Of a stretch of 37,538 bases of DNA, positions 8,485-12,467 are shown piece by piece. The position numbers were made by a program, and so were the translations under genes. The stretch spans positions 1-37,538 of the forward strand of contig JAHDWN010000004.1 in the NCBI GenBank assembly GCA_023382675.1, given 5' to 3'. Within the stretch, counting starts at the first letter, position 1; the number at the start of each line of letters is the position of its first letter. This stretch comes from Anaerolineae bacterium (GTDB lineage Bacteria > Chloroflexota > Anaerolineae > Aggregatilineales > Phototrophicaceae). A model generated the notes under the pieces. It saw only the letters and a list, made by a program, of their open reading frames with translations. It had not been told where the DNA came from and made no database searches.

Positions 8485-9459
8485 ATGAATCGCCGGTTGC
8501 CGAATCTACCTAGTTCGTTTGATAATGATTTTATGACCATCTACAGCCTGACCTACAACAGCACGACCTGGATCAACCTGGTCAATCCGACACCGCAAGA
8601 CGTGGCTGCAATTCAGCGACTTTATCCATTCATCCACCCCTTGAACGTGGAAGACATCACCAGCAACATCGAGCGCGCCAAGATCGACGTGGACGATGAG
8701 TATCTGTTTGCCGTCTTCCATTTTCCCCGCTGGGACGCCAAGATGCGCCTGACACGACCATACGAAGTCGATCTGTTCGTAGGGCGCGGCTTCATCGTGA
8801 CGTCGACCGCGACCGAAGGCGTGTTCAAACCCCTGGAAGCTCTGTATGGCGGAGCAGAAGAAGACGAAGCACGGCGCGCGGCAATTATGGGCAAGGGCGC
8901 AGCACACGCCTTCTATGTGGTGGTCGATACGCTGGTCGATTATATCTTCCCGATCTTGCGCAAGGTCGATCAAAATATCCACGATCTTGAAGAACGGATC
9001 TTCAGCGACGAAGGCCGCGTGATCATCCGCGATATAGCCATGGTGCGGCGTGACATTATCGCCCTGCGCCGCATCATCCGGCAGCTTGTGCCCGTGGTCG
9101 AGTCGCTTGACCGGTCGACGCGCCAGGTCTTCCGCGACGATCTCGAAGATTACTTCGATGACATCGCCGACCATATGCACCGCGCTCGCGACATCATCGA
9201 TGAGGATTACGAAGTGATCGACGGGTTGGCCGACACGGCAGACAAACTGCTCAGCCATCGCATCAACAATGTAATGCGCGTGCTGACGGTGATTTCCGTC
9301 ATTATGCTGCCGCTGACGCTGATTTCCAGCATCTACGGCATGAATCTGAATGTGCTGCCGCTATCGGATCATCCGCAGTCTTTCTGGATCATCAGCGCGG
9401 TGATGTTGTTGATCGCCTTCGTCATGCTGGTCTATTTTCGGTTTCGCCAATGGCTCTAA
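8485..9459 (+). CDS. corA: CorA-family magnesium/divalent cation transporter
   Basis: The 324-residue protein has a large N-terminal cytoplasmic domain with long helices (ending in 'DEDYEVIDGLADTADKLLSHRINNVMRVLTV') and two C-terminal transmembrane helices. The first ends in the diagnostic YGMN loop and the second is followed by a basic tail. CorA pentamers conduct Mg2+ (and Co2+/Ni2+) down the membrane potential. The start is ambiguous: ATG at 8485 follows TACAAT by six bases, while ATG at 8533 (MTIYSLTYN) is preceded by GATAAT, also by six bases; neither has a Shine-Dalgarno. The conserved region begins shortly after 8533. Its 3' end overlaps the RNase D gene by 10 bases, so the two are probably co-transcribed. 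Confidence 0.92.
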   Translation: MNRRLPNLPSSFDNDFMTIYSLTYNSTTWINLVNPTPQDVAAIQRLYPFIHPLNVEDITSNIERAKIDVDDEYLFAVFHFPRWDAKMRLTRPYEVDLFVGRGFIVTSTATEGVFKPLEALYGGAEEDEARRAAIMGKGAAHAFYVVVDTLVDYIFPILRKVDQNIHDLEERIFSDEGRVIIRDIAMVRRDIIALRRIIRQLVPVVESLDRSTRQVFRDDLEDYFDDIADHMHRARDIIDEDYEVIDGLADTADKLLSHRINNVMRVLTVISVIMLPLTLISSIYGMNLNVLPLSDHPQSFWIISAVMLLIAFVMLVYFRFRQWL

Positions 9460-10634
9460 ATCATCTTCCCCCGGCCATCTACATCGACGACGATCATCGC
9501 CTGCTAGGTCTGGTGCCGCTGCTGGCCAGAGAGCCGCTGATCGCAATCGACACCGAGTCCAACAGCCTGCACGCCTACCGCGAGCGCGTGTGTTTGATCC
9601 AGATCTCGACGCGGCAAGTCGATTACATCCTCGACCCGCTGACGATTGGCGACCTGTCGCCGCTCAAGCCAATCCTGGCCGATCCGAAAATCGAGAAGGT
9701 CTTCCACGCCGCCGAATACGACTTGATTTGCCTGAAACGTGACTTCGATTTCACCATCCACAATCTGTTCGACACGATGATCGCCGCCCGCGTCTGCGGC
9801 TATCGATCAGTCGGGCTGGGCGCGCTGTTGAACGAATTCCTGAACATTCACGTGGATAAGAGCCATCAACGCGACGATTGGGGATGGCGTCCACTGCCGG
9901 CTGATAGTTTGCGCTACGCCCAGATGGATACGCATTACCTGGCGACTTTGCGCGATCATCTGGCCGGGCAGTTGGCAGAGATGGAGCGCGAGCCTGAAGC
10001 CCACGAGCTGTTCGAGCAAATGTGCAATGTGCGTATACCGAGCAACGGTTTCAACCCTGAGGGATACTGGCGGCTGGCGCTGCCCAACAACCTGACAGAA
10101 CGCCAGGCGGCTGTTTTACGCGAATTATATCTGTGGCGCGATCAACTGGCAGAGCGGCGCGACGTGCCACCGTTCAAGGTTTTGAGCGATAAAACACTGA
10201 TTTCTCTCGCCCGGCAAGCACCGCAAACCACCGGTGAACTGGCCCACATTCACGGCATGACACCGGGCAATGTGCGCCGGTTTGGGCGAGATGTTGTGCG
10301 GTTAATCGCACAGGGGAGTGAAGCACCGCTGCCAGAGCCGCCTGAGCCAGAACCGGCGGCAGATCCGCGCGTGATTGAACTCTATTCAGCCCTGCGGGAA
10401 TGGCGGCGTGACCGGGCGAACGAGCGCGATGTCGAATCCGACGTAATTGTGTCACGCGATGCGCTGTGGTCGATGGCAGAAAATACGCCGACAACGCTCA
10501 AGGAGCTGCGTGAATTGGATGTACTCGGCCCATGGCGCCTTCAAGCGTATGGGGATGAACTGCTGGCGCTCATTCAGCGGCACATACCGAAAAAACGGCG
10601 ACCGAATCGCACATCGCGTGACCATGAGACATAG
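9450..10634 (+). CDS. rnd: ribonuclease D with two HRDC domains
   Basis: RNase D is a 3'-5' exoribonuclease that trims tRNA and other structured RNAs. The 394-residue protein has the DEDDy exonuclease residues in place: D34 and E36 (IDTES), D91 (FHAAEYDL), and Y156/D160 (YAQMD). Two helical HRDC domains follow, at about residues 215-295 and 315-385, joined by a Pro/Glu-rich linker; HRDC modules bind nucleic acid and help grip tRNA-like substrates. Length and layout match E. coli RNase D. The ATG at 9450 lies inside the end of corA (10-base overlap). The gene is followed after 16 bases by a second nuclease-type gene, suggesting a nucleic-acid-processing group. All catalytic residues are present, so it should be active. 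Confidence 0.94.
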   Translation: MALNHLPPAIYIDDDHRLLGLVPLLAREPLIAIDTESNSLHAYRERVCLIQISTRQVDYILDPLTIGDLSPLKPILADPKIEKVFHAAEYDLICLKRDFDFTIHNLFDTMIAARVCGYRSVGLGALLNEFLNIHVDKSHQRDDWGWRPLPADSLRYAQMDTHYLATLRDHLAGQLAEMEREPEAHELFEQMCNVRIPSNGFNPEGYWRLALPNNLTERQAAVLRELYLWRDQLAERRDVPPFKVLSDKTLISLARQAPQTTGELAHIHGMTPGNVRRFGRDVVRLIAQGSEAPLPEPPEPEPAADPRVIELYSALREWRRDRANERDVESDVIVSRDALWSMAENTPTTLKELRELDVLGPWRLQAYGDELLALIQRHIPKKRRPNRTSRDHET

Positions 10635-10650: not shown

Positions 10651-12054
10651 ATGAAAATCACGTTCTTCGGTGCAGCGCGCACGGTGACAGGCTCGCAGCA
10701 CATGATTGACATCAATGGACAGCGGATCTTGCTCGATTGCGGTTTGTATCAGGGTCGCCGTTCAGAAACCTATACGCGCAACCTGCACCTGCCATATGAT
10801 CCGGTCTCAGTCGATGTGATGGTGTTGTCCCACGCACACATCGATCATTCGGGCAACATTCCGAACCTGGTCAAACACGGTTTTCGTGGGGACATCATCT
10901 GCACCCATGCCACACGCGATCTCTGCGCGACGATGCTGCTCGACAGCGGGCACATTCAGGAGCGCGATGTCGAATTTTTGAACAAGCGTCGCAAACGCCG
11001 TGGAGAAGAACCTGTCGAACCGATCTACACGCAGGAGGAGGCGTCGCGCAGCCTGGATAACTTCATCGGCCAGAGTTATTACCGCACGCGGGCGATTGCG
11101 CCAGGCGTCAACCTGACGTTCCTCGACGCCGGGCACATGCTTGGCAGTACGATTGTCGTTCTGGACATCGAAGATCGCGAGGCAAAGCGGGATTTGCGGC
11201 TGGTCTTCAGCGGTGATCTGGGCCGCAAGGGCATCCCGATCATTCGCGACCCGGAGACGGTGGATCGCGCGGACGTGCTGATCATGGAAAGCACCTACGG
11301 CAATCGACTCCACGACGATATGGGCTATGAGACCAAACGTATAGAGCATATCATCGTCGATACGTACCGGCGGGGTGGTAAGGTGATCATCCCGGCGTTC
11401 GCCGTGGGCCGCACCCAGCGGCTTGTCTATATGCTGCATGAACTGCGCCTGAAGGGTGATATTCCGGAAATGCCGATCTTCGTGGACAGCCCGCTGGCTA
11501 TCGACGTGACAAGCGCGTTTCGTTCGCATCCTGAGTGCTATGACGCCGAAATCCGCGAGTTCATCTCCGGCAATGGTGTGCGAGACCCATTCGGTTTTGA
11601 AGACCTGACGTACACACGCACGACCGAACAGAGCAAGCGGATCAATTTTCTGCGCGAGCCTGCCATCATCATCAGCGCCAGCGGCATGGCGGAGACGGGG
11701 CGCATTCTTCACCATCTGAAGAACAACATCGAAGACGCGCGCAACACCATCCTGATCGTCGGCTTCCAGGCCGAAAACACGCTGGGGCGACGCCTGTTTG
11801 ATGGCGCGAAGCGCGTGCGCATTTTTGGCGAAGAATATGACGTGCGCGCGCAGGTAGAAGTGACCACCGGCCTGAGCGGTCACGCGGACCGCGTCGGACT
11901 GCTGGAATGGTTTGGCGCGTATCAAAAACGCCCGGACAAAGTGTTTCTCGTCCACGGCGAATTGGAACCAGCGACTGCCCTGGCGGATGGTCTGCACGCA
12001 GAATTCGGCGTTAACGCGAAAGTGCCCGATTGGAAGCAGAGTTTCGAAGTGTAG
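10651..12054 (+). CDS. metallo-beta-lactamase/beta-CASP RNA-processing nuclease
   Basis: The 467-residue protein has the MBL zinc motif H61-x-H63-x-D65-H66 in 'LSHAHIDHSGNIP', the 'DAGHMLGS' and 'SGDLGRKG' motifs, and a beta-CASP insertion with 'VIIPAFAVGRTQRL', 'SASGMAETGRILHHLKNN' and 'GLSGHADRVGLLEWF'. This is the CPSF73/Ysh1-like bacterial group of endo/exoribonucleases (relatives of TTHA0252), distinct from RNase J, which lacks this exact ending. It is expected to cut or degrade single-stranded RNA; a DNA role like that of SNM1 relatives cannot be excluded. GGAG lies about 11 bases before the ATG. It sits 16 bases after rnd and two bases before the small clamp-motif gene, strongly suggesting an operon. 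Confidence 0.93.
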   Translation: MKITFFGAARTVTGSQHMIDINGQRILLDCGLYQGRRSETYTRNLHLPYDPVSVDVMVLSHAHIDHSGNIPNLVKHGFRGDIICTHATRDLCATMLLDSGHIQERDVEFLNKRRKRRGEEPVEPIYTQEEASRSLDNFIGQSYYRTRAIAPGVNLTFLDAGHMLGSTIVVLDIEDREAKRDLRLVFSGDLGRKGIPIIRDPETVDRADVLIMESTYGNRLHDDMGYETKRIEHIIVDTYRRGGKVIIPAFAVGRTQRLVYMLHELRLKGDIPEMPIFVDSPLAIDVTSAFRSHPECYDAEIREFISGNGVRDPFGFEDLTYTRTTEQSKRINFLREPAIIISASGMAETGRILHHLKNNIEDARNTILIVGFQAENTLGRRLFDGAKRVRIFGEEYDVRAQVEVTTGLSGHADRVGLLEWFGAYQKRPDKVFLVHGELEPATALADGLHAEFGVNAKVPDWKQSFEV

Positions 12055-12056
12055 CT

Positions 12057-12467
12057 ATGAAACAGCGCAGCGTGTTCGCCGACGAATGGCGTGAGTGTCT
12101 CCGAGCGCATTACATGCACGTCGTACGCATCGGGGACATTTCGACCGAACCCACGCTCATCAGCGTTATGCAAGAGGCGGGTTTTAGCGAGACGGAGCTG
12201 GCTGAGCTGCGCATCCGCGCGACGATGCACGTGGATGACGTGGGCGCGGATTTTCAACCGGACGCGGCAGTGGTCGAAATGATCAAATCACAGATGGAAG
12301 CATCGCCAGCAGCAGAAATAATGGAGACAGCGCCGGAAGTCGTTGCAGCCGAACCCGGCGAGGCCGAAAACGAAGCGGATATGCCTCCAGCCGAAGAAGA
12401 GCCGCCGCCAAACGAAGAATATTACGCGCCGCCAGACGACAGTCCGCACCAGCTTTCGCTCTTTTAG
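12057..12467 (+). CDS. small acidic protein with C-terminal sliding-clamp-binding motif QLSLF
   Basis: I do not recognise a named family. The 136-residue protein has an N-terminal, apparently folded and mostly helical part (~1-75; 'FADEWRECLRAHYMHVVRIGD', 'AGFSETELAELRIRA'). A strongly acidic, Ala/Pro/Glu-rich and probably disordered linker follows (~80-130), and the extreme C terminus is QLSLF. That pentapeptide exactly matches the consensus QL(S/D)LF by which DNA polymerases and repair proteins bind the beta sliding clamp. A free C-terminal end on a flexible acidic tether is the usual layout for such motifs. The inference is a clamp-recruited adaptor or regulator, perhaps for the adjacent beta-CASP nuclease or RNase D. 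ATG at 12057 is two bases after the nuclease stop; no strong Shine-Dalgarno, so translation may be coupled. The motif could be chance; five residues is short. Confidence 0.75.
   Translation: MKQRSVFADEWRECLRAHYMHVVRIGDISTEPTLISVMQEAGFSETELAELRIRATMHVDDVGADFQPDAAVVEMIKSQMEASPAAEIMETAPEVVAAEPGEAENEADMPPAEEEPPPNEEYYAPPDDSPHQLSLF

Follow-up and report, generated by a model that had tools for sequence, protein, structure and literature searches.

Can a protein of only 136 amino acids be a client of the bacterial sliding clamp, and, if so, what would it do there? This question is raised by a gene of an Anaerolineae bacterium (assembly GCA_023382675.1, contig JAHDWN010000004.1) that is located on the plus strand at positions 12057 to 12467 (stop codon included) of the window, i.e., the whole stretch of 37,538 nucleotides that was analysed. 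It was delineated by translation of its open reading frame and by the homologues that were found for it, and it is single-copy in its own genome, where the search returned the protein itself and a next match with an E-value of 0.83. The C-terminus of the predicted product reads DDSPHQLSLF, followed directly by the stop codon; its last five residues (132 to 136; positions 12450 to 12464, plus strand) form a clamp-binding-type pentapeptide according to the translation, the homologues and the published consensus. The QLSLF end had already been recognized in a preliminary description of this DNA, as had the two bases that separate the stop of the preceding gene (12054) from the start of the reading frame (12057); both readings are correct.

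This preceding gene codes for a nuclease of the beta-CASP metallo-beta-lactamase type (10651 to 12054, plus strand), and is itself preceded by the gene for an RNase D-like 3'-5' exonuclease that contains two stretches of the HRDC type (9450 to 10634, plus strand), so that the gene order in the window is RNase D, beta-CASP nuclease, 136-amino-acid protein. Both neighbors were assigned through domain searches against Pfam and NCBIfam and through a survey of related loci. In NCBIfam, the beta-CASP protein matches the type VII CRISPR Cas14 model best, at 418 bits, the cut-off of this model being 800.

Distribution of the Protein Family

Relatives of the protein are present in 93 of the 98 genomes of the same taxonomic family, and in 62 of the 63 high-quality ones, as judged by protein search. 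A 36-row profile detected them in 130 of the 154 genomes of the host order (81 of the 90 high-quality ones) and in 31 of 396 genomes of the class, all of which belong to the host order; a phylum sample of 400 genomes yielded two matches, the studied genome itself and one other of its family. Outside the host order, no member was found in the class (396 genomes) and phylum (400 genomes) samples by searches that score a part of the first-look candidates, from which very distant relatives may escape. A broader profile of the N-terminal domain (66 of 67 rows; L161 was omitted for a run of N) gave matches with E-values of 0.5 or below in 180 of the 396 class genomes; 31 of these are clear (E ≤ 7.3e-11) and again all from the host order, and they are followed by a gap to an E-value of 0.004 and then by weak, scattered matches. 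The weak match in genome G117 covers 15 residues at a contig end and is probably a piece of a true gene. No relative was detected in the plasmids or in the viral contigs that were searched.

Relatives occur in 21 named records; the titles of 20 of these give Anaerolineae, Anaerolinea, Anaerolineales or Chloroflexi, and that of the remaining one gives Bacteroidetes. The protein from the latter record (L036) is a close family member set in an Anaerolineae-like gene order, and the record is probably a mislabelled metagenome-assembled genome.

The profile found no match in 24 genomes of the order, three of these absences (G026, G045, G117) being located at contig ends; the beta-CASP gene was present in 13 of the 18 such genomes examined. 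The gene is missing from all five genomes of g41, and is therefore dispensable in this group. There, a SurE-like gene (tested against Pfam SurE in one genome, L199) follows the beta-CASP gene, and a gene of similar appearance, by sequence likeness, follows the gene for the 136-amino-acid family in the sister genus g42.

A search of the open-licence PMC literature on the tail, on the clamp in Chloroflexota, and on small or proteome-wide clamp binders revealed no report on this family in titles or the beginnings of abstracts. The passage on Chloroflexi/Anaerolineae in a study of clamp evolution (PMC8357120) considers a possible transfer of the clamp gene and contains nothing on clamp clients.

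Conservation of the C-Terminal Tail

A total of 181 loci, many of them overlapping, were gathered; a profile search over these loci, combined with a choice of start codons, yielded 179 proteins, 129 of which are distinct. One locus (L050) was left out since its contig starts inside the gene; its end does read QLSLF. Three of the 129 distinct proteins were set aside, two because they lie at contig ends and one because of a run of N, leaving 126 evaluable homologues. The tail, defined as Qxx[LMF]F, forms the exact C-terminal end of 114 of these, with QLSLF in 48, QMSLF in 15, and 28 rarer types in the remaining 51; it lies one or two residues inside the end in three others (L051, L107, L148). 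Hence, 117 of 126 homologues keep the tail at, or within two residues of, their C-terminus. The 48 proteins ending in QLSLF encode it by 35 different 15-base sequences, and the conserved entity is consequently the peptide and not the DNA.

The degree of constraint was assessed with 58 motif-bearing members sharing less than 70% identity by a crude ungapped measure. Since the choice of these members itself fixes or restricts Q at -5, L/M/F at -2 and F at -1, the informative positions are -4 (L in 45, M in 7), -3 (S in 47) and -7 (P in 41), to be compared with an entropy that averages 3.28 bits across the 28 columns starting at -40. The preliminary description had predicted a tail that is conserved and a linker that drifts, and this is the pattern found among the homologues.

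The same description had named homologues without the motif as evidence against its reading. Nine of the 126 homologues are of this kind and count against it: L083, L084 and L085 (f3), L093 and L114 (f8), L099 (f2), L103 and L104 (f4), and L149 (f1). One of them, L104, carries QKSLF followed by a stop in another frame; the gene hence looks frameshifted, and the displacement of its tail probably stems from a frameshift in the gene or in the assembly. The other eight have no tail with a stop nearby in any of the three frames. These losses, confined to a few lineages, look like secondary ones, with the exception of the f8 pair, which cannot be polarized. The three f3 proteins are 71 to 72 amino acids long and end directly after the N-terminal domain, with neither linker nor tail; the domain can thus persist without the clamp motif.

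Other Carriers of the Tail and Control Genes

Genes of seven kinds from the same loci (RNase D, beta-CASP, CorA, TadA-like, MalQ, alpha-amylase-type and HisS; one example of each was checked with Pfam) carry the motif at their end in none of 259 cases, and none of 1095 members of a looser set of predicted reading frames, which includes antisense shadows as well as genes truncated by the ends of the loci, terminates in it. At the DNA level, the studied assembly (96% complete) contains the pattern for QLxLF followed by TRR at 12 places, as compared with 8 for the reversed control; for a wider pattern, the numbers are 15 and 13. The two extra places with a true stop contributed by the wider pattern (L194, L196) are open for 15 and 8 codons only. 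The raw pattern shows no clear excess, and the evidence accordingly resides in the position of the motif at the ends of orthologous genes.

A true stop is present at six of the 12 places. Two of these are spurious, as their frames stay open for no more than 10 and 5 codons; the other four are the gene for the 136-amino-acid protein and those for a family-4 uracil-DNA glycosylase (UDG4; L187:829-1515; TIGR00758, 181 bits, the cut-off being 125), a radical SAM protein (L189:1504-2694) and an Ogt-like protein (L182:1504-1974). The radical SAM protein resembles TIGR03916, a putative DNA modification/repair family, with a score (262 bits) below the cut-off of 343.5. The Ogt-like protein, which ends in QLRLF, scores above the cut-off for PF01035 and below that for TIGR00589; it reads PWHRV at the position where alkyltransferases carry PCHRV.

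UDG4 matches occur in 148 of the 154 genomes of the order, many of them only via a weaker second group; the listed g22 genomes seemingly lack the closer group and have the weaker one only (E around 1e-30). The tails of 50 UDG4 proteins of the closer group were inspected (the 30 best and 20 from other families, including some genomes without the gene for the 136-amino-acid protein), and 49 of these orthologues (within L238-L287) have the motif at their end, after a Pro-rich linker. Proline is found at -7, two residues before the Q, in 43 of the 50 UDG4 proteins and in 94 of the 114 exact tail-bearers of the 136-amino-acid family. The papers that a search of the open-licence PMC literature for family-4 UDG and the clamp listed deal mainly with archaeal PCNA, and no report on such a tail in bacteria was among them. 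Of 61 genomes sampled from the family, 42 encode the radical SAM protein; among the 30 best (L288-L317), Qxx[LM]F is the end of 23 and lies inside by one residue in one more, whereas three end in QxxLL and three in other ways. The tail is shared with DNA-repair-type proteins of the clade, which supports this part of the preliminary description.

Because the tail is kept in 114 plus 3 of 126 homologues, is found on none of the 259 neighboring genes, and recurs on co-bearers of the repair type, we consider it very probably a real clamp-binding motif. A receptor other than DnaN, such as a protease that reads the tail as a degron, would make the likeness to the clamp motif a matter of convergence. 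C-terminal hydrophobic tips can indeed act as degrons, and some tips deviate from the strict consensus at its second position (QSSLF, QNSLF, QKSLF). However, Q and F are kept, mostly with L, S and L between them, as in the consensus given in PMC12309361; the same tail sits on nearly all UDG4 orthologues examined; and in three members it is followed by one or two further residues, unlike a strict end-reading degron. We regard a non-DnaN receptor as very improbable.

The DnaN Clamp as the Likely Receptor

The studied assembly encodes one DnaN protein, which scores above the cut-off of TIGR00663 and has matches in the PDB to 55 distinct sequences, both of clamps and of clamp fusions. In alignments, it keeps the stretches ADGYRLA, KFPDF, NIRYLIDAL and VLMPM, which line the peptide pocket of DnaN. 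In the 136-amino-acid protein, QLSLF is placed at the free C-terminus after a linker for which AlphaFold2 reports mostly low confidence, and should hence be accessible. PMC12309361 gives QL[S/D]LF, more generally QxxLF, as the consensus, and reports that the C-terminus of the Bacillus subtilis PolC protein is QLSLF and that the corresponding peptide binds its clamp with a KD of 3.8 µM. By motif, conservation and context, the studied protein can be classed as a putative clamp client, and it is highly probable that its tail would bind DnaN.

Architecture of the N-Terminal Domain and the Linker

AlphaFold2 models (with 21 sequences as input for the full-length protein), together with the conserved residues, delineate a three-helix N-terminal domain (residues 8 to 56; positions 12078 to 12224, plus strand) whose fold was not recognized; its helices span residues 8-25, 31-40 and 45-56. 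Per block, the pLDDT values are 96-97 for residues 11-50, 82 for residues 51-60, and 51-78 from residue 61 on; a weaker helix is predicted at residues 70-81 within the linker, and the confidence thereafter is mostly low. The mean pLDDT and the pTM are 76.2 and 0.45 for the full-length model, and 82.2 and 0.60 for a model of the N-terminal domain only. In alignments, F7, W11, L15, L34 and G42 are nearly invariant, and the identity of the domain to that of the window protein drops to 22% in the 66-row alignment. The domain has a mean net charge of -6 among the 58 members, and a nucleic-acid-binding function, assessed from this charge, is consequently unlikely.

The linker (residues 70 to 131; positions 12264 to 12449, plus strand) is acidic and rich in Pro, Ala and Glu, as delineated by its composition and its pLDDT values, with a net charge of -16 over these residues. 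Among those of the 58 members longer than 85 amino acids, the segment from residue 76 to the motif varies between 14 and 105 residues and is composed of 16% P, 15.5% E, 15% A and 12% D; the 114 exact tail-bearers are 76 to 222 amino acids long. A CxCxxC motif follows the N-terminal domain in 51 of the 129 homologues (e.g., L029, L040, L145, L157) and is absent from the window protein. Together with a preceding His it reads HPxECxCxxC in 12 of the 58 representatives, where the His was matched, and this sequence might possibly form a zinc site in the linkers of these homologues.

Searches of Pfam and NCBIfam with the 136-amino-acid protein returned nothing above the cut-offs (top match DUF913, E 0.092), Pfam recognized no family above cut-off in six relatives (one chance match, E 0.59), and the family profile had a top E-value of 0.56 against PDB sequences. 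Fold searches with the full-length and N-terminal-domain models against the PDB, and with the latter against viral models, gave no match with an E-value of 0.001 or below. The top scores, Z 7.6 (3bey) and Z 7.5 (the N-terminal domain of YebC, 1kon, which superimposes with 1.1 Å over 48 residues at 2% identity), fall into the range that the tool assigns to common helical arrangements. We file the family as a new one, without significant Pfam, NCBIfam or PDB match, inside a known kind, the clamp-binding proteins.

A small protein that ends in a strong consensus tail and lacks a recognized enzymatic domain might also be a regulator of clamp occupancy, a protein that carries no cargo and competes with polymerases and repair enzymes for the pocket, thereby setting access or polymerase exchange, with the N-terminal domain acting as a dimerizer or switch. 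The long acidic linker fits competition as well as tethering. However, a conserved domain of 50 residues in which F, W and L are nearly invariant would be superfluous in a pure competitor, and this domain persists in f3, where the tail has been lost; we consider such a regulator unlikely.

Comparison with Known Proteins

Single-stranded DNA-binding proteins (SSB) consist of a small folded domain (an OB fold), an acidic disordered linker, and a short hydrophobic docking tip of the DDDxPF type. The 136-amino-acid protein has the same layout of domain, acidic linker and short tip, but is predicted to be helical and not to adopt an OB fold, and its tip is PHQLSLF and not an acidic PF tip. Regulators of the Hda/HdaA type are non-polymerase proteins that a short motif recruits to the clamp, and Hda is an AAA+ protein; the short clamp motif and the non-polymerase nature are common to both, whereas the AAA+ domain is absent from the 136-amino-acid protein. 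With Bacillus PolC, as described in PMC12309361, it shares the identical pentapeptide at a free C-terminus, yet it contains no polymerase, exonuclease or other Pfam or NCBIfam domain. Similar in layout within the host order are the family-4 UDG proteins, since both combine a folded domain, a Pro-rich linker and a terminal (P)xQLSLF-type tail; UDG, in contrast, is an enzyme of a known family, and the 136-amino-acid protein has no recognized enzymatic domain.

Three identities were considered and rejected. The protein has no OB-fold match in Pfam, an N-terminal domain predicted to be all-helical, and a PHQLSLF end (SSB); no AAA+ match in Pfam or NCBIfam at a length of 136 amino acids (Hda or another DnaA-related protein); and, at the same length, no match to a C-family polymerase domain in these libraries (PolC or DnaE). 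The readings as an SSB-like protein, an Hda-like protein or a polymerase subunit were dropped because the defining domains are absent.

Genomic Neighborhood and the Beta-CASP Nuclease

The neighborhood was surveyed at 113 distinct loci, 103 of which have at least 1.6 kb of upstream DNA. A beta-CASP gene of the same strand precedes the reading frame by 400 bases or less at 45 of these 103 loci, an RNase D gene at 13, and a MalQ (4-alpha-glucanotransferase) or alpha-amylase-type gene within the same distance at 25; none of these is found there at 20 loci, with two beta-CASP genes and one RNase D gene slightly further off. RNase D is encoded within 3 kb at 40 of 95 loci. Downstream, a gene for a TadA-like deaminase is present within 2.5 kb at 67 of 98 loci.

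Given that either nuclease gene is the immediate upstream neighbor on the same strand at 58 of the 103 loci, sometimes overlapping or abutting, the protein might be envisioned as an adaptor that brings RNase D, the beta-CASP nuclease, or both to the replisome for the removal of RNA or the clearing of R-loops. However, neither gene is located upstream at any of the 14 f2 loci that were judged, and 13 of these keep the tail. The reverse is found in f3, where two of the tail-less proteins of 71 to 72 residues (L084, L085) are encoded directly downstream of a beta-CASP gene. The three f3 loci L083, L084 and L085 still adjoin RNase D. Furthermore, the MalQ or alpha-amylase-type gene takes the upstream position at a quarter of the loci, the TadA-like deaminase gene is the commoner neighbor, and the motif is absent from the ends of all the RNase D (44) and beta-CASP (47) genes that were checked. 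We therefore judge a nuclease adaptor of this kind to be quite improbable.

The preliminary description had tied its proposed adaptor to the beta-CASP nuclease, a view that is not supported, given adjacency at fewer than half of the loci, the f2 tails that occur without this gene, and the reverse situation in f3. Since tail and beta-CASP gene occur independently of each other, this neighborhood may reflect operon history more than partnership; the beta-CASP nuclease is not an obligate partner, and the link to it is weak.

Proposed Role and Implications

The protein probably belongs to the machinery for the copying or repair of DNA. Our preferred reading, which we hold with moderate confidence, is that of a stand-alone, non-enzymatic accessory protein tethered to the clamp. 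The C-terminal QLSLF would dock into the peptide pocket of DnaN, the sliding clamp; the linker, acidic and disordered, would serve as a tether whose length varies; and the three-helix domain, which is small and likewise acidic, would hold or position a partner protein at the clamp, in the setting of replication-coupled DNA repair or replisome upkeep. If the clamp is indeed bound, it is reasonably likely that the N-terminal domain is a protein-binding module that recruits such a partner. The common neighbors speak against this accessory-protein reading, as RNase D, beta-CASP and TadA-like genes are genes of RNA metabolism and not of replication. Furthermore, the tail-less f3 proteins and the five g41 genomes without the gene indicate that the link to the clamp is not indispensable in every lineage.

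A more specific version is put forward tentatively, as a possibility of somewhat lower standing: an order-specific replisome adaptor whose N-terminal domain recruits a repair or replication enzyme, as part of a habit of this clade to tether base-damage repair proteins to the clamp. The other named members of this habit would be UDG4, the TIGR03916-like radical SAM protein and the Ogt-like protein, with their C-terminal PxQLSLF-type tails.

Should the tail bind DnaN, the protein would be one associated with replication or repair and conserved through most of a bacterial order. Its family, which stands outside the general domain libraries, would then illustrate that replisome accessories can be lineage-specific. 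The tail would provide a handle by which the partner can be found and a function named, through peptide binding and pull-down. Searches for the tail may also help to detect clamp clients in uncultured bacteria, since the real genes that it picked out in this assembly beside that for the 136-amino-acid protein are all of the repair type.
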